Shown one piece after another: positions 2,564 to 25,164 of a stretch of 64,000 nucleotides of DNA. The DNA lies in assembly GCF_021023135.1 (NCBI RefSeq), contig NZ_PGFV01000002.1:744001-808000 (forward strand), given 5' to 3'. The notes beneath the pieces are model-generated. The model was not told the origin of the DNA. It worked only from the letters and a program-made list of their open reading frames with translations, and made no database searches. A program made the translations under genes and the position numbers. The DNA comes from Brevibacterium sp. CCUG 69071 (GTDB taxonomy: Bacteria > Actinomycetota > Actinomycetes > Actinomycetales > Brevibacteriaceae). Within the stretch, counting starts at the first letter, position 1; each line of letters starts with the position of its first letter.

Positions 2564-4432
2564 TCAGGCCTTATCGGTCGACGTCAAGCCCTCGGACTCA
2601 GAGGCATCGGCCGGCGAAGCGGCACCGGCCGACGAAGCGTCGTCGCCCTTGCCCCCGGTCGGCGCCGCGGACACAGTTTCGTCCTCCTCCTCGACCGGAA
2701 GCTCGGAGGTCTCGAGGCTGAAGACCGAACCGTCGTACTCATCGACGGCGGTGGCCACCGACTGCTCGAGCACATGGCTGGCCAGCTGTCCCTGGATGAT
2801 CAGCGGATCCTTGGACAGGTCCTTCCACAGCGCCACACAGAGCAGAAGCATGACGATGACGAACGGCAGCGCGGAGACGATCGTGATGTTCTTCAGCCCA
2901 TCGAGCGCCTCGGCGGGATCCGATCCTCCTGCCAGGAGCATCACGGCGGCAACGGCACCGGTGGCCGTACCCCAGAAGATCACGAGCGCACGGCCGGGTT
3001 CGAGCATGCCGTTGGCGGAGAGCGTGCCCATGACGATCGAGGCCGAGTCCGCACCGGTGACGAAGAAGATCGCGATGAGGATGACTGTGACGATCATGAG
3101 GATGATCGCAATGAGGTTCGGCAGGGGCAGAGCCGCCAGCAGGTCGAAGAGGATCGTGTCCATGTTGATGTCCGGCTCACCGTCGACGACCGAGGCGAGG
3201 GCCTTGACGGTGCCTTCACCGCGCTCGGCGCGTTCCTGGATGCCGATGGCGCCGCCGCCGAAGACCGCGAACCAGATGGTCGAGACCACGGAGGGGACGA
3301 TGAGCACGCCAGTGACGAACTGGCGAACGGTGCGACCACGGGAGATGCGGGCGATGAAGAGACCGACGAACGGCGACCATGAGACCCACCAGGCCCAGTA
3401 GAAGACCGTCCACGAGGACAGCCATTCGTTGACGCCCTGACCATCGGCCGCGGTCCGCGAGGCCAGCTGCGGCAGATCCTGGATGAAGGCACCCACCGAG
3501 GAGGGAATGACGTTGAGGATGAACAGCGTCGGTCCGCCGATGAAGACGATGAGGGCGACGATGACGGCAAGGACCATGTTGATGTTCGAGAGCCACTGGA
3601 TGCCCTTCTCGACACCGGAGACCGCCGAAGCGACGAAGGCTGCGGTGAGGATCGCGATGATGATCACGAGCACCGGCGAGGTGACCTCGGACATGATGCC
3701 CGCCGATTCGATGCCGCCGCCGATCTGAATCGCTCCGAGACCCAGGGAGCAGGCCGAGCCGAAGAGAGTCGCGAGGATCGCGAGGATGTTGATGACCTTG
3801 CCGCCGATGCCGTTGACAGCGCGTTCGCCGAACAGCGAGGTGAACATCGACGAGAAGAGCTGCGAACGACCGAGGCGGAACGATCCGTAGGCCACGCCGA
3901 GCCCGACGATGGCGTACATGGCCCACGGGTAGAGGGTCCAGTGGAAGAGCGTCGTGCCCATCGAGGTGCCCATCGCCTCGGCGGTGGAGCCGTCGACGGT
4001 GTTCGGGGGAGGCGACATGTAGAAGAAGAGGGGTTCGCCGACCGCTGAGAACACGAGCCCGATGCCCATGCCGGTAGCGAACATCATGGCGATCCACGAG
4101 GAGGTCTTGAACTCCGGCTTCTCATCGTCGCGGCCCAGCGGGATCCGACCGAAGCGGCTGACGGCGATGACGATGACGAAGATCGTGAAGATGGTGGCGG
4201 CGATGACGAAGAGCCAGCCGAAGTTGTTCATGACGCCGGTCAGCAGAGTGCCGGCGACGGCACCGAGGCTGTCGGGGGAGACGAAGCCCCAGACGACGAA
4301 GGCGACGGCGAGGATGCCGGCGGAGAAGAACACGACCCTGTCGAGTCCCTCGCGTTTGAACGGCCGCAGGGCGGTGGTCGGATTCTTCAGGAGCTCGATG
4401 AGCTCCTGAGTCTTACTGTGTTCACTGCTCAT
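2564..4432 (-). CDS. BCCT family betaine/choline/carnitine transporter
   Basis: This 622-residue inner-membrane transporter of the BCCT family takes up quaternary ammonium osmolytes such as glycine betaine, usually with Na+. About twelve hydrophobic segments are visible. Diagnostic blocks are FATGMGIGLVFSAVGEPLFFY and the aromatic-rich stretch WTVFYWAWWVSWSPFVGLF followed by ARISRGRT, which builds the substrate-binding Trp cage. A charged N-terminal segment (MSSEHSKTQELIELLKN) and a long acidic C-terminal tail of about 70 residues flank the core. In BetP such tails sense osmotic stress; whether that holds here is inference. The substrate cannot be told from sequence alone. The gene appears monocistronic. 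Confidence 0.93.
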   Translation of the reverse strand: MSSEHSKTQELIELLKNPTTALRPFKREGLDRVVFFSAGILAVAFVVWGFVSPDSLGAVAGTLLTGVMNNFGWLFVIAATIFTIFVIVIAVSRFGRIPLGRDDEKPEFKTSSWIAMMFATGMGIGLVFSAVGEPLFFYMSPPPNTVDGSTAEAMGTSMGTTLFHWTLYPWAMYAIVGLGVAYGSFRLGRSQLFSSMFTSLFGERAVNGIGGKVINILAILATLFGSACSLGLGAIQIGGGIESAGIMSEVTSPVLVIIIAILTAAFVASAVSGVEKGIQWLSNINMVLAVIVALIVFIGGPTLFILNVIPSSVGAFIQDLPQLASRTAADGQGVNEWLSSWTVFYWAWWVSWSPFVGLFIARISRGRTVRQFVTGVLIVPSVVSTIWFAVFGGGAIGIQERAERGEGTVKALASVVDGEPDINMDTILFDLLAALPLPNLIAIILMIVTVILIAIFFVTGADSASIVMGTLSANGMLEPGRALVIFWGTATGAVAAVMLLAGGSDPAEALDGLKNITIVSALPFVIVMLLLCVALWKDLSKDPLIIQGQLASHVLEQSVATAVDEYDGSVFSLETSELPVEEEDETVSAAPTGGKGDDASSAGAASPADASESEGLTSTDKA

Positions 4433-19035: not shown

Positions 19036-19133
19036 ACGGGTGCGAACCGGGGACAGGTCCGCGGTGCTCCGTCGATAGGGCGGGCACGTTCCCGGGGTTG
19101 CTTGCGGCCGCCGATCCACTCGCACACCGGACG

Positions 19134-19196
19134 CCTGTGGAGACCCATCCGACTTGCGCGTGATCGGCCTGTGGAGGCAGAAGCACTGTCCACAGG
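19134..19196 (+). promoter_or_regulatory. Three-site CCTGTGGA module upstream of yraN-comM-dprA-xerC
   Basis: CCTGTGGA at 19134 and 19168 and TCCACAGG at 19189 form a three-site array with start-to-start spacings of 34 and 21 bp. ACTTGCGCGT at 19152 lies between the first two. The outer bases extend the last pair to a 13-bp perfect dyad (19163-19175 and 19189-19201). The array ends 51 bp before the yraN ATG. The same 63-bp layout occurs in reverse upstream of the M23-M15 gene. The sites contain TCCACA, the core of actinobacterial DnaA boxes; CTGTCCACA (19186-19194) fits the YYNTCCACA pattern. Confidence 0.7.
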
Positions 19197-19247
19197 CCGA
19201 TTCCCCGCTCTTGTCCGGCTTTCAATGACCATGCTGGTCTTGGCGGT

Positions 19248-19646
19248 ATGGGACGAACAATGTCGGGCCGCGGCCGCACCGAACGCGGGATGCGCAAGCA
19301 AGCACTCGGGCGAATCGGTGAGGACCTCGCCGCCGACTATCTCGAGCGGGCGGGAATGGTCGTCGTCACGCGGAACTTCCGCTGCCCACAGGGAGAGATC
19401 GACATCATCGCCCGTGACGGAGAGACGATCGTCTTCGTCGAGGTCAAGACCCGCCGCACAGCGGCACTCGGCTCACCCCTGGAGGCCGTGACCCGAGATA
19501 AGGTCGCTCGTCTGCGCAGGCTCTCCGGGATCTGGCTGAGCCAGCAGCCGGCGTACTACCGATCTACTCGCATCGATGCGCTCGGGATCGTAATGGAACC
19601 CGCACCCATCTATGACCATTGCCCGAACATCCAGGTCGACTCATGA
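19248..19646 (+). CDS. yraN: YraN family (UPF0102) endonuclease-like protein
   Basis: This 132-residue protein has a restriction-endonuclease-like fold, resembling Holliday-junction resolvases. The motif set is visible: GEDLAADYLERAGMVVVTRNFR, the acidic GEIDIIARD, and FVEVKTRR with E-x-K. YraN proteins are thought to act in DNA processing or recombination; the biochemical role is unsettled. The start may be 19248, 19260 or 19290 (the last gives MRKQALGRIGE, the usual start); no strong RBS is seen. It overlaps comM by ATGA and heads the four-gene DNA-processing operon. Confidence 0.92.
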   Translation: MGRTMSGRGRTERGMRKQALGRIGEDLAADYLERAGMVVVTRNFRCPQGEIDIIARDGETIVFVEVKTRRTAALGSPLEAVTRDKVARLRRLSGIWLSQQPAYYRSTRIDALGIVMEPAPIYDHCPNIQVDS

Positions 19647-21193
19647 GCGAGGAGCCGATCCTCAATGTCATCGGACGTGCCTCGGCGGTGGCGCTGTGGG
19701 GTCTGACGGGAAAGATCGTATCCATCGAAGCCTGCATGAGCGCGGGTCTGCCCGGCATCGACATCGTCGGCCTGCCCGACGCCTCGGTCAGCGAGTCGCG
19801 CAAACGGCTGCGTGCGGCTCTGGCCTATCTGGGAATTCCCGTCGCCACCCAGCATCTGACGATCAACCTCACCCCCGGAACCGTGCCGAAGGTCGGCACC
19901 GGCTTCGATCTGGGCATTGCCGTGGCCGTGCTCAAAGCCCAACGGGTCATCACGAATGAGAGCACCGAGGGCGTCATCCATTGCGGTGAGCTCGGACTTG
20001 ACGGGCGGATCCGCCCGGTCAGCGGAGTCCTGCCGAGCCTGCATGCCGGTCTTCACTCGGGCTTCGACCACTTCGTCGTCCCCATCGGAAACGCCCCGGA
20101 GGCCGCCCTGCTCGCAGGTGCGCGGATCCAAGCCGTGGCCTCGCTGGCCGAACTGGTCAACCTCTACGGCGGCGACCTCGAGGTGCCGTCGCTGCCGCCG
20201 GTGGTCGAGGTCGACAGGCCCGTGGCCAATCCGCCCGAACTCCATGACCTCGCCGAGGTGCAGGGCCAAGCCGAAGCTCGCTTCGGCATCGAAGTCGCCG
20301 CCGCGGGCGGGCACAACCTCCTCATGCGCGGCACCCCGGGCGCCGGCAAGACTCTGTTGGCGCAGTGCCTGCCGGGGATCCTGCCGCCGCTCGATGATGC
20401 CGAGGCCGTCGAGGTGGCCGCGGTGCGATCCCTGCGGGGAGAGCTCGACGGCAGTCAGGGACTCGACCACCGGCCACCGTTCGAGGCACCCCACCATCGC
20501 AGCACCGCCTCGGCTCTGATCGGGGGTCGCAAGCCCGGGACCGTGGGGATCCTGTCCAAGGCCCATCGCGGGGTGCTGTTCATGGACGAGGCGCCCGAGT
20601 TCTCCCGGGACGTCCTCGAGGCCCTGCGCCAGCCCATGGAGGCGCGGCAGGTGCACATCCACCGGGCCTGGGGTTCGATGGTGCTGCCGTCCTCGTTTCA
20701 GCTGGTCATGGCCGCGAACCCCTGCCCGTGCGGGGCGGGAATGCCGGGGACTCAGGTCACCTGCCGCTGCACGCCGATGGATAAACGGCGCTACCGCAAC
20801 CGACTCTCCGGACCGCTGCTCGACCGGGTCGACCTGCAGCTCGAGCTCTTTCCGGTCTCCCCGGCGGACCTTCGCCTCGGCGGGGAGCAGGAGGACAGTG
20901 TCACCGTGGCCGCCAGGGTCGCGATCGCCCGCAGATGGCAGGCCGACCGCTACGTCGACTGTGCATGGACACTCAACTCCGGTGCACCCGGGGCATGGCT
21001 GCGCGAGCACTTCGCGATGCGACCGAGTGCTCTGGCCGATCTCGACCGGGCCCTGGACACCGGACGGATCACCATGCGCGGCTACGACCGGGTGCTGCGG
21101 GTCGCGACCACACTGTCCGACCTCGACGGGGGCGAGGGGCCGAGCCCGGACAAGATCAGGATGGCACTGGCATTGAGGACGCAGGAGACATGA
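19643..21193 (+). CDS. comM: YifB/ComM family AAA+ ATPase
   Basis: This 516-residue Mg-chelatase-like AAA+ protein is related to ComM, a hexameric helicase that promotes branch migration during natural transformation. The N-terminal domain has GLPGIDIVGLPDASVSESR. The ATPase core has Walker A GTPGAGKT, Walker B FMDEAPEF, sensor MAANPCPCG and the zinc-like CRC/CPCG cluster. The C-terminal Mg-chelatase domain ends near RGYDRVLRVATTLSDLDG. ATGA overlaps link it to yraN and to dprA. The context with dprA supports a role in processing incoming or recombining DNA. Confidence 0.95.
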   Translation: MSEEPILNVIGRASAVALWGLTGKIVSIEACMSAGLPGIDIVGLPDASVSESRKRLRAALAYLGIPVATQHLTINLTPGTVPKVGTGFDLGIAVAVLKAQRVITNESTEGVIHCGELGLDGRIRPVSGVLPSLHAGLHSGFDHFVVPIGNAPEAALLAGARIQAVASLAELVNLYGGDLEVPSLPPVVEVDRPVANPPELHDLAEVQGQAEARFGIEVAAAGGHNLLMRGTPGAGKTLLAQCLPGILPPLDDAEAVEVAAVRSLRGELDGSQGLDHRPPFEAPHHRSTASALIGGRKPGTVGILSKAHRGVLFMDEAPEFSRDVLEALRQPMEARQVHIHRAWGSMVLPSSFQLVMAANPCPCGAGMPGTQVTCRCTPMDKRRYRNRLSGPLLDRVDLQLELFPVSPADLRLGGEQEDSVTVAARVAIARRWQADRYVDCAWTLNSGAPGAWLREHFAMRPSALADLDRALDTGRITMRGYDRVLRVATTLSDLDGGEGPSPDKIRMALALRTQET

Positions 21194-22563
21194 ACGAACA
21201 CGCGCACGATGAGGTGTACCCGGGCGACGGGGCGCACCCGGACGACGGGGCACATCCGGACGGCGGGGCGCATCCGGACGACAAGGCGGGCCCGAATGAC
21301 GGTGCGCACCCGGACGACGGGGCCGGTGCAGGAAGCGACGAGATGCGTGCCGCGGTGGCGGCGCTGCTGCGGATCGGGGAACCCGGCGACGGTCTCCTGA
21401 AAGGACTCGTCGATGCGATCGGGCCGGTGGCGGTCCTTGAGATCGTCCTCGCCGTAGCGGCAGGGGCAACCTCGTCCGCCGAGGCGGTGGCCGGGTTGGG
21501 GGCAGTCGTCGACGAGGTGCCCGGCAGCGGGCAGCTGAGCGAGGCGATCGACCGCTGGGCCGTTCGCGGTGGCGATGGGACCGGACCACGTGATCTCGAG
21601 GCCATCGACCGCCTCGGTGGTCGGCTCGTCATTCCCGGTGATGAGGAATGGCCGGCAGCGCTGTCGGATCTCGGGCCGGCGACGCCCCTGGGACTGTGGG
21701 TGCGGGGGACGGCGCGACTGGATCAGGCTCTTACCCGGGCCATCGCCATCGTCGGCGCCCGCGCAGCGAGCAACTACGGCACCAAATGTGCTTCCGATCT
21801 GGCATGGGACCTCGCCGCGAGAGACATCACCGTGGTCTCCGGGGGCGCCTTCGGCATCGACGCGGCCGCCCACCGGGCCGCGATCGCCCGCGAAGCGCCG
21901 ACCATCGCCTTCATGGCCGGGGGAGTCGACCGGTTCTACCCGGCGGCGAACACCGAACTGTTCCAGCAGATCCTCGAGACCGGAGCCATCGTGTCCGAGA
22001 CCGCACCCGGCATGACTCCGATGCGTCACCGGTTCCTGCTGCGCAATCGCCTCATCGCCGCCTCTGCGCAGGCCACGGTCATCGTCGAAGCAGGATGGCG
22101 CAGCGGAGCGCTCAACACGGCCCGGCATGCGCTCGAGCTCTCACGCGAGGTCGCCGCCTTTCCCGGCTCCGTCTACTCCGCATCCTCGACCGGGACCCAC
22201 CGCCTCATCCGGAACCACGAAGCCGAACTCGTGACCAGCAGCGACGACGTCATCGCCCTCCTCGACGACGGAGCCCCGGCTCTGTTCGACACCTCGTCGT
22301 TCTTCGGCTCAGCGGCCGCGGGCGGGGTGGACGCGGAACACGCCGGAACGGGTGCTGTCAGCGGCCCGCTCGATGACCTCGGTGAGGGGGAGAAGATCTG
22401 CCTCAACGTCCTGTCGACGACGAAATCCCTGGACGTGGGCACCGTCGCGGCCAGAGCAGGGCTGACGGTGCCGGGGGTCCTCTCGGCGCTCGCCGCCCTC
22501 GAACTGCTCGGACTCGCGACCCGTCGCGACACCGGGTGGGTGAAGCTGCGACCTCGGACATGA
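21190..22563 (+). CDS. dprA: DNA processing protein DprA
   Basis: This 457-residue DprA loads RecA on incoming single-stranded DNA in transformation. The Rossmann-like core is clear: AIVGARAASNYGT, VVSGGAFGIDAAAHRAA, GGVDRFYPAAN, HRFLLRNRLIAA and VEAGWRSGALNTA. A C-terminal winged-helix domain (about residues 395-450) follows a linker. The N-terminus is unusual, consisting of six degenerate hexapeptide repeats of the type AHPDDG encoded by 18-bp units. The ATG at 21190 overlaps the comM stop by ATGA; a later start would remove the repeats, so whether they are translated depends on this start. Confidence 0.94.
   Translation: MNEHAHDEVYPGDGAHPDDGAHPDGGAHPDDKAGPNDGAHPDDGAGAGSDEMRAAVAALLRIGEPGDGLLKGLVDAIGPVAVLEIVLAVAAGATSSAEAVAGLGAVVDEVPGSGQLSEAIDRWAVRGGDGTGPRDLEAIDRLGGRLVIPGDEEWPAALSDLGPATPLGLWVRGTARLDQALTRAIAIVGARAASNYGTKCASDLAWDLAARDITVVSGGAFGIDAAAHRAAIAREAPTIAFMAGGVDRFYPAANTELFQQILETGAIVSETAPGMTPMRHRFLLRNRLIAASAQATVIVEAGWRSGALNTARHALELSREVAAFPGSVYSASSTGTHRLIRNHEAELVTSSDDVIALLDDGAPALFDTSSFFGSAAAGGVDAEHAGTGAVSGPLDDLGEGEKICLNVLSTTKSLDVGTVAARAGLTVPGVLSALAALELLGLATRRDTGWVKLRPRT
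21214..21321 (+). repeat. Six 18-bp tandem repeats in the dprA N-terminus
   Basis: Units begin at 21214, 21232, 21250, 21268, 21286 and 21304 and are all exactly 18 bp. The units at 21232 and 21304 are identical (GCGCACCCGGACGACGGG). They encode six-residue repeats such as AHPDDG and AGPNDG. The exact period keeps the frame if copies are gained or lost. Confidence 0.85.
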
Positions 22564-22591
22564 GGCGAGGGAGAGCGCGTAACCTGGGGGA

Positions 22592-23617
22592 ATGAGCACA
22601 TCGTCGACCGTCGCCGAAGTGGTGTCCGGCTATGCCGAACACCTCCGGGCGCGTGGCGTGTCCGAACACACCTCGCGGGCCTATGTCTCCGATGTCTCCG
22701 ACTTCTTCGACCACACCACCTCGGCGAAGACCGAAATCGATGTCAGCTCCATCGGGCTGAATGATCTGCGCTCCTGGCTCATCGCCCTCGACGATGCCGG
22801 AGCAGCGAAGTCGACGGTGGCCCGCAAGATCGCCGCCATCAAATCCTTCTTCTCCTACGGGGTCGACCAGCTCGGTCTGAAGAGCAATCCGGCCGCCCGT
22901 CTGCGTACACCCAAGAAGGACTCTCGCCTGCCGACCGTGCTCAAGCCCCAGCAGGCGGCCGACCTCATCACCGCCGGCTCTCGCGCACGGGCCGGAACCG
23001 GCGGCTCCGCGCGATCCTCCGATTCCGCGAATGACGGCGCTCGCGGTCAAGACAATTCCGACGCGGTCGACGGCGACTCGGGACCAGCCGGCGAACCCGA
23101 TCCTGTCGAGATCGCCAAAGGTCTCCGCGACGCAGCGATCCTCGAACTGCTCTATGCCACGGCGGTGCGTGTCTCGGAGCTGACCGGACTCGACCGTGCG
23201 GACATCGATCAGCGCGCGTCGATGATCACCGTGCTCGGCAAGGGCAACAAGGAACGGCGGGTGCCCTTCGGCATCCCGGCCCGGCAGGCGCTCAGCGCCT
23301 GGTTGAGTGTGCGCGAGACCTTCGCCTCGGCGAACAGCGGTGACGCCCTGTTCCTCGGCTTACGTGGTGGGCGAATCGGGGCCCGTCAGGTCAGAGAGCT
23401 CGTCCATCACTACGGGGCGAACGACCCCAGCGCCCCGGACATCGGCCCGCACGGACTCCGCCACTCGGCGGCCACGCACATGCTCGATCGGGGAGCCGAC
23501 CTCCGCCAGATCCAGGAGCTGCTCGGACACTCGACCATGTCCAGCACTCAGATCTATACGCACGTCTCCATGCAGCGACTCCAGGAGACCTACCGGCAGG
23601 CCCACCCCCGGGCCTGA
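22592..23617 (+). CDS. xerC: Tyrosine recombinase XerC
   Basis: This 341-residue tyrosine recombinase, with XerD, resolves chromosome dimers at dif. The N-terminal SAM-like domain starts VVSGYAEHLRARGVSEHTSR. The catalytic set is complete: Arg in ATAVRVSELTG, Lys in GKGNKERR, HGLRHSAATH, the His in LGHSTMSSTQIYTHV and its Tyr. An unusual Ser/Gly/Asp-rich insertion of about 40 residues (roughly 128-168) separates the two domains, making it longer than the usual 300. It follows dprA after 28 bp and closes the operon. Confidence 0.94.
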   Translation: MSTSSTVAEVVSGYAEHLRARGVSEHTSRAYVSDVSDFFDHTTSAKTEIDVSSIGLNDLRSWLIALDDAGAAKSTVARKIAAIKSFFSYGVDQLGLKSNPAARLRTPKKDSRLPTVLKPQQAADLITAGSRARAGTGGSARSSDSANDGARGQDNSDAVDGDSGPAGEPDPVEIAKGLRDAAILELLYATAVRVSELTGLDRADIDQRASMITVLGKGNKERRVPFGIPARQALSAWLSVRETFASANSGDALFLGLRGGRIGARQVRELVHHYGANDPSAPDIGPHGLRHSAATHMLDRGADLRQIQELLGHSTMSSTQIYTHVSMQRLQETYRQAHPRA

Positions 23618-23625
23618 TCTCGCTG

Positions 23626-23657
23626 CCGGGCCGAGTCATAGCTCAAGAAGGGCCCGG
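23626..23657. terminator. Hairpin between convergent xerC and M23-M15 genes
   Basis: CCGGGCC (23626-23632) pairs with GGCCCGG (23651-23657) around an 18-base loop. It lies just after the xerC stop in the convergent gap and may act on either strand. Confidence 0.4.
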
Positions 23658-23739
23658 ACTATTGCTCACGAACGGCTCTGATCATCGCCCTAGAGCAGTC
23701 CGTCGGGAGTTCGCCACCTCGACCCACGGAAGCCTCACT

Positions 23740-24870
23740 TCACTTCCGGAACTCCCAGTGCCAGGGCTCCGGCAGCGACCCGGTCTGCCGAGCCCACCCG
23801 GGATGGATCCACCCGAACTTCGGTGCGTTCGCCCGCATCCACTGGTGCTGGGCGCTGCCGAAGGAATTGATTCCGCCACCGAGGTCGACCGCCAGCGCCC
23901 ACCCGTGATTCGAGGTTCCCGGGGTTGCCGCCATCCGCCCCTTGCGCTTCTTGAGGATGACCTGGGTCGCGTAGTCGCGATAGGAATCCGTCACCGAGAT
24001 CGGCACTTTGAAGCGAGCTTCGAAGGCGTGGGAGAGGCGATCGAAGGCCTTCTGCGCGTCACAGCGCAGCATGTGCCCGGGCGCGGTCGTCAGCGGGCAC
24101 ATCGCCGAGGCGGGGATCCGGCCGTTGCTGTGTCCGCCCCAGGCTCCCGCTCCCGAAGTGGTGCTGTCACTGCCGCCGGCGGGCTCTTCGGCGGGTTTGC
24201 GTTTCAAAGGAAGCAGAATCGACTGCTCGTGGCCGAAGAACTGTGCCGGATCGATATAGTCCTTATTGCTCGCTGCCGTCCACACACCGATGTGCAGACA
24301 GGACTTCTCGCAGTGGGTACCCTCGGCGACGACTCCGATCTCCTCACCTGCGGCGAACTCATCGCCCTTCTTCCTCTCTGTGCTCGCCGGCTGGAACGAC
24401 ACCACATGGCCGGAGTCGGTTTCGATGCTCACGGTCGGTGTTCCCGCCACGGACCCGCGGAAGCGGATGCTGCTGGCAGTCGGTGCGCGCAGCGGCTCAC
24501 CGTCGACGGCGAGCACGTCGATTCCGCGGTGGCCTTTGAGCCAGGGTTTGTCCGGCGGGTCGAAGGCCTCGATGATCTCCATCGCCGGCACGGGGGAAAC
24601 CCACGTCGTCTCGGACGCGCCAGTTCCGCTGGACCCACCAGCGTTACTGGCTCCAACGGGCCCACTGACCTTGCCGGACCCACCATGCCCACTGGACCCA
24701 CGCGTATCTGCCTGTACCGCGCCGTCACCCGCTGGGGCGGCAAGGGCCAGCACGAACGAGAGGAAGAGCGCGGTGATGATGAACCGTGCGCGACGAGCCT
24801 GCGCCGAGTGCAGGCGGCGACCGGACAGGGGATGCAGTGACCGCGGCGGATCGAGAGAGAAGGGGTTCAT
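23740..24870 (-). CDS. Secreted murein hydrolase with M23 (LytM) and M15 (VanY-type) domains
   Basis: This 376-residue protein has an N-terminal export segment (basic region, then FIITALFLSFVLALAAPA) and two peptidase-like domains. The M23 domain (about residues 80-185) has the first zinc motif GHRGIDVLA, but the second is CLHIG, where canonical enzymes have HxH, so activity is doubtful; such variants are known at this locus in actinobacteria. The M15 domain (about 245-376) has SNHGWALAVD and EPWHWEF, an intact zinc-ligand set for a D,D-carboxypeptidase or L,D-endopeptidase. M23 genes commonly precede rpsB in actinobacteria; the M15 fusion is unusual. ATG at 24870 is favoured; a 3-codon ORF overlaps it. 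Confidence 0.9.
   Translation of the reverse strand: MNPFSLDPPRSLHPLSGRRLHSAQARRARFIITALFLSFVLALAAPAGDGAVQADTRGSSGHGGSGKVSGPVGASNAGGSSGTGASETTWVSPVPAMEIIEAFDPPDKPWLKGHRGIDVLAVDGEPLRAPTASSIRFRGSVAGTPTVSIETDSGHVVSFQPASTERKKGDEFAAGEEIGVVAEGTHCEKSCLHIGVWTAASNKDYIDPAQFFGHEQSILLPLKRKPAEEPAGGSDSTTSGAGAWGGHSNGRIPASAMCPLTTAPGHMLRCDAQKAFDRLSHAFEARFKVPISVTDSYRDYATQVILKKRKGRMAATPGTSNHGWALAVDLGGGINSFGSAQHQWMRANAPKFGWIHPGWARQTGSLPEPWHWEFRK
24629..24700 (-). repeat. Four degenerate 18-bp repeats in the hydrolase linker
   Basis: On the plus strand, 18-bp units begin at 24629, 24647, 24665 and 24683, three of them starting CTGG or CTGA and most ending in CCCA. They encode the Gly/Ser/Thr-rich linker between the export signal and the M23 domain. 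The match is loose but the period is the same as at three other loci. Confidence 0.5.
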
Positions 24871-24920
24871 AAGGCCATGGAAACCTCCCGACAGGTTGCG
24901 TGTCAGCACCGCCGACTTCA

Positions 24921-24983
24921 CCTGTGGAAGGCTGTTCATCGTCCACAGGCAGATGACGCGCAAGTGGATGCGCAATCCACAGC
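24921..24983 (-). promoter_or_regulatory. Three-site CCTGTGGA module upstream of the M23-M15 gene
   Basis: Read on the minus strand, GCTGTGGA (24983-24976), ACTTGCGCGT (24965-24956), CCTGTGGA (24949-24942) and TCCACAGG (24928-24921) reproduce the yraN-side module with identical spacing (34 and 21 bp, 13-base dyad loop, 63 bp in total). The module ends 50 bp before the start codon. My gapless comparison of the two gives 44 of 63 identical bases, with the four blocks nearly perfect. Confidence 0.7.
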
Positions 24984-25111
24984 TCGTCGCACTTGAGTCC
25001 GGGCTCCCGATGCACGGTCACAGAGGTGGACGTCGTCCCACCGAACGAACGCGACCGAGTCGGCCCAGGACAACCTCGGCGGGCGACGCTATCTATCCAC
25101 AGCTCACAGCA

Positions 25112-25164
25112 CGCAAGTCGGTGTCGGTGACACCCACGCAGCTTCCGCAAGTCGGTGTCAGTGA
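25112..25164 (-). repeat. Pair of 19-bp direct repeats
   Basis: CGCAAGTCGGTGTCGGTGA (25112-25130) and its copy at 25146-25164 differ at one base and are 34 bp apart, the same spacing as sites 1 and 2 of the adjacent CCTGTGGA module. On the minus strand each ends in ACTTGCG, the block also found in both modules. Confidence 0.7.

Follow-up and report, generated by a model that had tools for sequence, protein, structure and literature searches.

Several competence operators are known: the ComK boxes of Bacillus, the cin-box/ComX system of Streptococcus and the CRP-S sites of Haemophilus. Each of them is a single cis-element found in front of late-competence genes that are scattered over the genome (comEA/EC, dprA, ssb, pilus). 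A 63-bp module that is found twice in a 64,000-nucleotide stretch of Brevibacterium sp. CCUG 69071 (contig NZ_PGFV01000002.1, positions 744,001 to 808,000; this whole stretch is hereafter referred to as the window) belongs to a set of modules that likewise precede such genes, and it differs from the known operators in its sequence and spacing and, possibly, in serving leaderless promoters. We consider it probable, judging from the sequence, that these modules are the operators of an activator-driven natural-transformation (competence) regulon of Brevibacterium.

Among actinobacteria, the competence system of Micrococcus luteus shares comEA/EC, DprA and Tad pili with the genes treated here, and a candidate HTH_17 regulator lies beside a CpaB gene there (available portions of PMC8467076 and PMC4322843). 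No ComK homologue was found in that species, according to the available portion of PMC4322843. The available portions of three reports (PMC8467076, PMC4322843 and PMC12849477) name no operator of M. luteus competence; in the last of them, of 2026, the upstream signals or the regulatory cascade of actinobacterial competence are described as still to be identified. As far as the listed titles and beginnings of abstracts show, the open-access literature searched describes neither an operator of an actinobacterial competence regulon nor a link of one to type VII secretion. A comparable coupling exists in Vibrio cholerae, where the TfoX/QstR regulon ties the uptake of DNA to a system for protein secretion (available portion of PMC6237807). 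There the secretion is of type VI, whereas in the actinobacterium Brevibacterium the coupling would be to type VII-type genes and a murein hydrolase.

In the window, module A (19134..19196, plus strand; profile E 5.4e-11) is a putative operator before yraN-comM-dprA-xerC, and module B (24921..24983, minus strand; profile E 2.7e-14) lies before an M23/M15 hydrolase gene; both served as training copies for the profile. The preliminary description of this pair is confirmed. On the plus strand, CTGTGGA of module A lies at 19135 and 19169 and TCCACAG at 19189; for the minus-strand module B, TCCACAG lies at 24976 and 24942 and CTGTGGA at 24922. Module A is composed of site 1 (CCTGTGGA, 19134-19141), ACTTGCGCGT (19152-19161), site 2 (CCTGTGGA, 19168-19175) and site 3 (TCCACAGG, 19189-19196), all on the plus strand. 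The corresponding parts of module B, all read on the minus strand, are site 1 (24976-24983), ACTTGCGCGT (24956-24965), site 2 (24942-24949) and site 3 (24921-24928). Sites 1-3 and ACTTGCGCGT stand in a common register: the gapless alignment gives 44 identities in 63 positions, with 33 of 34 within the four blocks, and ACTTGCGCGT occurs in the window only at 19152 (+) and 24956 (-). The end of module A (19196) is separated by 51 bp from the ATG at 19248, and the end of module B (24921) by 50 bp from the ATG at 24870.

The spaced pattern TGTGGA-N28-TGTGGA-N13-TCCACA was found at seven places in the 4.13-Mb genome (20 contigs). These are all the places given by the loose pattern TGTGGA-N15..42-TGTGGA-N5..32-TCCACA, every one with the 28/13 gaps; the reversed loose pattern, used as a control, gave none in this genome and a first-order Markov simulation with the composition of the window (6 Mb, both strands) gave no match to the loose pattern. 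The palindromic half TGTGGA-N13-TCCACA with one mismatch or fewer occurs at 17 places, 11 of them exact, and its reversed control at 8; one-mismatch matches alone therefore prove little and were accepted only with an ACTYGCG block at the right distance. The additional copies accepted with the ACTYG block lie at a second ssb, a DUF4192 gene, three DUF559-like genes and a cpaB-like gene, and the other additional places that were viewed lie inside coding sequences or lack the block. A profile was built from a trimmed 10-row alignment, from which the DUF4192 copy was left out and in which the cpaB and ssb2 rows carry one-base gaps. With this profile, whose E-values are rough, 13 places were found at E ≤ 1e-5, three of them outside the ten training copies, and one of these three, recognized by the profile alone, precedes a fourth DUF559-like gene. 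Weaker matches precede tadZ-tadA and a surface-protein gene, and another DUF559-like gene has one beside it; some are intragenic (for example in recR, named by eye) and look like chance matches. Altogether, the genome carries a set of about fifteen similar modules, and the strong copies lie before genes of the regulon type, not at random sites.

Genes of two kinds follow the modules: com, dprA, ssb and the pilus genes belong to the textbook set for transformation, and those for secretion, the hydrolase and the DUF proteins stand outside it. After degV, a module precedes comEA (SLBB, HHH_3)-comEC (Competence domain)-holA; others precede yraN (UPF0102)-comM (Mg_chelatase)-dprA-xerC and the second SSB, and the genes for a Flp pilin (DUF4244) and TadE carry a module, with a T2SSE-type TadA further upstream. 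What is expected of a competence operator, namely one element before comEA/comEC, dprA, ssb and pilus genes, is thus found here. Modules are also followed by the genes for a CpaB-like SAF protein, a WXG100 protein and an FtsK/SpoIIIE ATPase (its top-scoring NCBIfam family is EccCa, with 191 bits where the cut-off is 509), by the M23 + VanY hydrolase and DUF4192 genes, and by the gene for a small protein, wxgL, with an esterase-like neighbour, neither of which has a family match. The labels wxgL, esterase-like, surface (thioester) protein, AbiEi-like and TadZ were given by eye, and NCBIfam gave no match for the DUF559-like, wxgL, esterase-like or surface proteins. The preliminary description had proposed a shared promoter/operator of a competence-like programme; this proposal is supported and extends to comEA-comEC, the second ssb, the Tad pilus and the type VII secretion-type genes. 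It was also seen that, of the DUF559/MTES_1575-like genes of this genome (restriction-endonuclease-like, AbiEi-like by eye), four have a module or near copy upstream and a fifth adjoins one; for four of them scanned, the Pfam match is below the cut-off or absent (loci L019, L035, L039, L056, L060). Two DUF559-like genes 3′ of modules look interrupted (L039, about 3304-4260; L123, about 2901 onwards). Between a DUF4192 gene and a gene that is spermidine-synthase-like by eye stands a palindromic form of the module, flanked by ACTCG on either side (C11:1045491).

The modules are conserved before homologous genes in relatives. The profile matched 35 of the 41 genomes of the genus at E ≤ 1e-3, 27 of them at 7-16 places and 8 at 1-3 places. 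In five relatives, 51 matches were counted and 21 were fetched: all 21 precede orthologues, or homologues in the case of three DUF559-like genes, one of which has a coding sequence that looks split, and the mirror pair of the window occurs in conserved order among them. Of 18 weak copies taken from less similar Brevibacterium species, 13 adjoin, on either side, a gene clearly homologous to one of the regulon; of the others, three have an EccC-like match of only 29-31% identity and two adjoin purB, which faces wxgL in the genome of the window. Finally, a named scan listed 80 of at least 116 core-bearing stretches, 47 of them being Brevibacterium stretches with homologues of genes of the present genome. 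Within these 47, 46 of the 48 core sites have a homologue of some regulon gene at most 450 bp away, and for the other two it is purB that lies so near.

The anatomy was read from 88 modules, chosen by an exact TGTGGA-N13-TCCACA with ACT at -18 or -17 relative to the site 2 TGTGGA; those columns are conserved by construction, and many of the modules are orthologous and hence not independent. Site 1, for which no selection was made, is exact at -34 in 44 of the 88; within the range from -40 to -25, the only other exact occurrence is in one module at -33, the remaining 14 offsets having none. The ACT element recurs at -51, 17 bp 5′ of site 1, and the array is therefore a 34-bp direct repeat of a composite unit, ACTCGYGCG-N7/8-CCTGTGGA, closed by the inverted TCCACAGG; the cpaB copy has a repeat spacing of 33 bp instead of 34. 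The ACT columns at -51 to -49 are weakly conserved (62-76%). In module A, the upstream element is ACTCGCA, 18 bp 5′ of the site 1 TGTGGA (19118..19124, plus strand), and in module B it is ACTCAAG at -51 (24992..24998, minus strand).

Downstream of the array, likewise without selection, a -35-like CT[TG]G[AC]C is found at +40 and a T at +70 in 69 of the 88 modules. In 14 promoters of the present genome, the -35 score peaks at +40 with a mean of 4.64 of 6, as compared with 2.17 ± 0.59 for all offsets and 3.14 for the next best; most of these 14 promoters are among the 88 modules from which the pattern was taken, and four of the 14 belong to mutually similar DUF559-like genes. The fixed position relative to a promoter that a competence operator should have is thus seen by the -35-like element, the -10 signal being weak. 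The ATG falls at +76 to +78 in 9 of the 14 promoters, five to seven bases past the -10 position, and this fixed place accounts for the constant 50-51 bp noticed in the preliminary description. Such a placement is that of leaderless mRNAs and suggests leaderless promoters served by an upstream activator. With the ATG taken as the predicted transcript start, the array would occupy about -51 to -128 relative to it.

The region at about -51 to -128 is one where activators act. In the mechanism that we propose, a sequence-specific DNA-binding protein, most likely an activator acting as a cooperative oligomer, would recognize the unit ACTCGYGCG-N7/8-CCTGTGGACG, placed head-to-tail 34 bp apart, with the inverted TCCACAGG closing a 25-bp palindrome. 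Sitting at about -51 to -111, or out to -128, relative to the transcript start and directly before a weak promoter of the sigma-A type (-35 at +40, -10 near +65), the bound protein would recruit RNA polymerase and so jointly switch on the DNA-uptake pore (comEA-comEC), DNA processing (dprA, comM, ssb2) and the Tad pilus, together with the type VII secretion-type ATPase, the WXG100 protein and the murein hydrolase. The layout of the array, its conservation, its gene set and its fixed distance to the -35-like element and to many start codons are observed features; from them we infer the binding protein, activation over repression, the leaderless transcripts, the function in transformation and the inducing condition. 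That the module is instead a signal at the DNA level, a DNA-uptake sequence or recombination site, would suit its association with DNA-uptake genes. Uptake sequences occur in hundreds of genomic copies, also inside genes, however, and 13 places in 4.13 Mb together with the fixed distance before the ATG in 9 of the 14 promoters make this explanation scarcely credible.

Beyond the genus, a simpler TCCACAG-type box precedes yraN and comEA in most of the class genomes examined. The class sets consist of the best-scoring 29 off-genus loci for each gene, out of 141 (yraN) and 134 (comEA) matching genomes among 148. Upstream of yraN, TCCACA on the coding strand is found within 200 bp in 24 of the 29 genomes, at a density of 7.07 per kb against 0.17 for TGTGGA and a background of 0.10-0.13 per kb per strand, and 14 of the 26 successive TCC[AC]CA pairs closer than 60 bp have a spacing of 26-29 bp. 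Upstream of comEA, it is found within 1 kb in 26 of the 29, at 1.43 per kb against 0.17 for TGTGGA and a background of 0.06-0.11 per kb per strand. As a separate observation, a GGAGGTGG stretch stands directly 5′ of the yraN match in many off-genus genomes (L273-L301; seen by eye, uncounted).

The same box also occurs near genes of a candidate regulator. According to the available portion of PMC8467076, M. luteus mutations that make the comEA/EC promoter more active are clustered within or close to Mlut_14660, an HTH_17 gene beside a CpaB gene, and R64W, put back alone, restored the phenotype. The genome of the window encodes a 73-aa HTH_17 protein (L041), which presumably corresponds to the M. 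luteus protein, and within 200 bp upstream of HTH_17 genes TCCACA is present in 19 of the 29 class loci (3.28 per kb; TGTGGA, 1.03). The M. luteus mutations and the boxes upstream of HTH_17 genes are what speaks for the same regulon being held down by a repressor, for example of the HTH_17/excisionase type, that binds the module and whose release induces competence. Such a repressor would have to act from upstream of the -35-like element, over which the module does not lie; another reinserted cluster-13 mutation of M. luteus, 13-M89, left comEA/EC expression unaltered (PMC8467076, available portion); an HTH_17 homologue (E ≤ 1e-5) is missing from 12 of the 26 class genomes in which a comEA box is present; and the HTH_17 gene of the present genome has no box within 300 bp. 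We regard repression as improbable and prefer an activator, although the 12 genomes also tell against our own reading in that they weaken HTH_17 as a universal binder. The HTH_17 protein may take part in the circuit and is at most a candidate for the module binder. The upstream regions of class HTH_17 (excisionase-type) genes often hold TTATCCACA or GTCCACAG, in many cases some 82-98 bp upstream of the match (L348-L376).

The TCCACA core is common to the module sites and DnaA boxes, and the preliminary description had offered a DnaA-binding cluster as its second reading. Here the boxes would be DnaA sites, through which DnaA either controls the genes, coupling competence to the replication state, or is titrated. 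The DnaA-box consensus is TT[AG]TCCACA, a form seen in the dnaA regions of relatives, and [TC][TC][GAC]TCCACA is the Streptomyces consensus. Across the class, the boxes overlap with dnaA-region sites in their flank preferences: the former occurs in 4 of 41 yraN, 8 of 41 comEA and 11 of 19 HTH_17-gene boxes versus 20 of 89 TCCACA sites of dnaA regions, and the looser form in 30 of 41, 23 of 41 and 14 of 19 versus 47 of 89, the 89 sites being those of the 10 chromosome ends, out of 20 fetched, in which dnaA is present. A DnaA origin or control of those boxes is possible. Within Brevibacterium, the shared core stands and a DnaA cluster is disfavoured: TT[AG]TCCACA occurs in 2 of 220 module sites versus 9 of 45 TCCACA sites from the dnaA regions of five relatives. 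In the window, the flanks CTGTCCACA, TCGTCCACA and CTATCCACA that had been likened to DnaA boxes are present, but none fits TT[AG]TCCACA. In contrast to DnaA boxes, the module keeps no TT at -3/-2 and has conserved flanks, an ACTYGCG block and a fixed array. At its -2 position, site 2 has C in 84%, and the two bases after site 3 are both G (94% and 84%, respectively), versus GG in 2 of 45 dnaA-region sites; site 3 alone, with T as its -2 base in 52%, argues less strongly against DnaA. To our knowledge, neither the ACTYGCG block nor the fixed 34/19-bp spacing is a feature of DnaA sites. DnaA is thus an unlikely binder of the Brevibacterium module.

The operator reading itself has to be weighed against several observations that count against it. 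One group concerns the promoter: TAnnnT at +65 is present in only 13 of the 88 modules, and the -10 score of the 14 promoters peaks weakly at +65 (1.86 of 4; runners-up, 1.64). The position of the module is compatible with activation and is no proof of it, so that the activator is a predicted one. Another group concerns the members: the EccC and CpaB NCBIfam matches lie below the curated cut-offs, and two Pfam matches of the DUF559/MTES_1575-like proteins lie just or well below theirs. The last group concerns the distribution. Six of the 41 genus genomes had no match at 1e-3, and four of them, searched again, gave weak matches only (best E 0.0012 to 0.033). The full module was found in 36 of 396 genomes of the order at 1e-4, 28 of them in the genus; the 8 others belong to five other genera and have one place each. 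Only two of the nine off-genus loci examined, both of the same genus, precede a regulon homologue, a WXG100 gene; of the rest, one is a tandem TGTGGA array and six are unexplained. Among the matches listed in the named scan, 30 of the 33 off-genus sites have no adjoining regulon gene, and three precede yraN/comM. When 21 such loci were viewed by eye, dnaN was found behind one (L207), dnaB near another (L228) and an EccC/FtsK-like gene behind a third (Cellulomonas L186); the others are unexplained. Expression in other species is mixed: in favour of the reading, comEC, dprA and the tad/flp genes rise in darkness in Rhodoluna lacicola; against it, comEA is named as the exception in one passage, and in A. 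photophilum the same genes show no coordinate expression (PMC8591293, available portion). On balance, the genus-wide operator-like module of a candidate competence regulon is real, and the type VII secretion-type genes and the murein hydrolase are likely to be members of this regulon.

The remaining features of the window are as follows. Downstream of module A, a -35-like CTTGTC lies at 19210..19215 (+), at offset +40 from the site 2 TGTGGA, followed by a poor -10-like stretch at about 19234-19241; module B has GCTGAC at +40 (24902..24907, -). The operon behind module A begins with yraN (UPF0102; 19248..19646, +; PF02021, E 3.3e-27), whose ATG is at +78, so that its mRNA may be leaderless. It continues on the same strand with a comM-type Mg-chelatase-like AAA protein (19643..21193; PF01078, PF13541, PF13335), dprA (21190..22563; PF02481, E 3.9e-66) and an xerC-like tyrosine recombinase (22592..23617; PF00589, E 7.6e-41, and PF02899), the name xerC being that of the earlier description. 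On the opposite strand, the M23 + VanY/M15-type hydrolase (23740..24870; PF01551, E 4e-7; PF02557, E 2.9e-11) has its ATG at +77 of module B and is probably exported because of an N-terminal hydrophobic stretch, seen by eye. Beyond module B lies an isolated partial unit, ACTTGCG-N10-TGTGGA without site 3 (25096..25118, -; 13.8 bits, E 0.19, a weak match), which may be a degenerate unit or an auxiliary one. Also past module B, at 25112-25152, the window holds two CGCAAGTCGGTGTC repeats, which read ACTTGCG on the minus strand.

A wider and less secure interpretation, which we hold possible while leaning slightly against it, is that of an ancient actinobacterial competence switch: one activator would read the TCCACAG-type box class-wide before comEA-comEC and yraN-comM-dprA, and in Brevibacterium its site would have been enlarged to a composite array with control also over type VII secretion, Tad pili and a fratricin-like murein hydrolase. 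If this is true, cells would attack neighbours or remodel walls during DNA uptake, a Gram-positive counterpart of the link between TfoX/QstR and type VI secretion in Vibrio. As to the competence-operator reading that we favour, the operator defines a candidate regulon without knowledge of the signal and can serve as bait for the regulator. It predicts new competence genes, namely those for DUF4192, the DUF559-like proteins, the second SSB and the M23/M15 hydrolase. It also suggests a place for type VII secretion in the same programme, and may thereby bear on ESX-dependent DNA transfer, which is known from mycobacteria. The module set speaks for natural transformation being under a common, hidden control in a bacterial group for which none is known.

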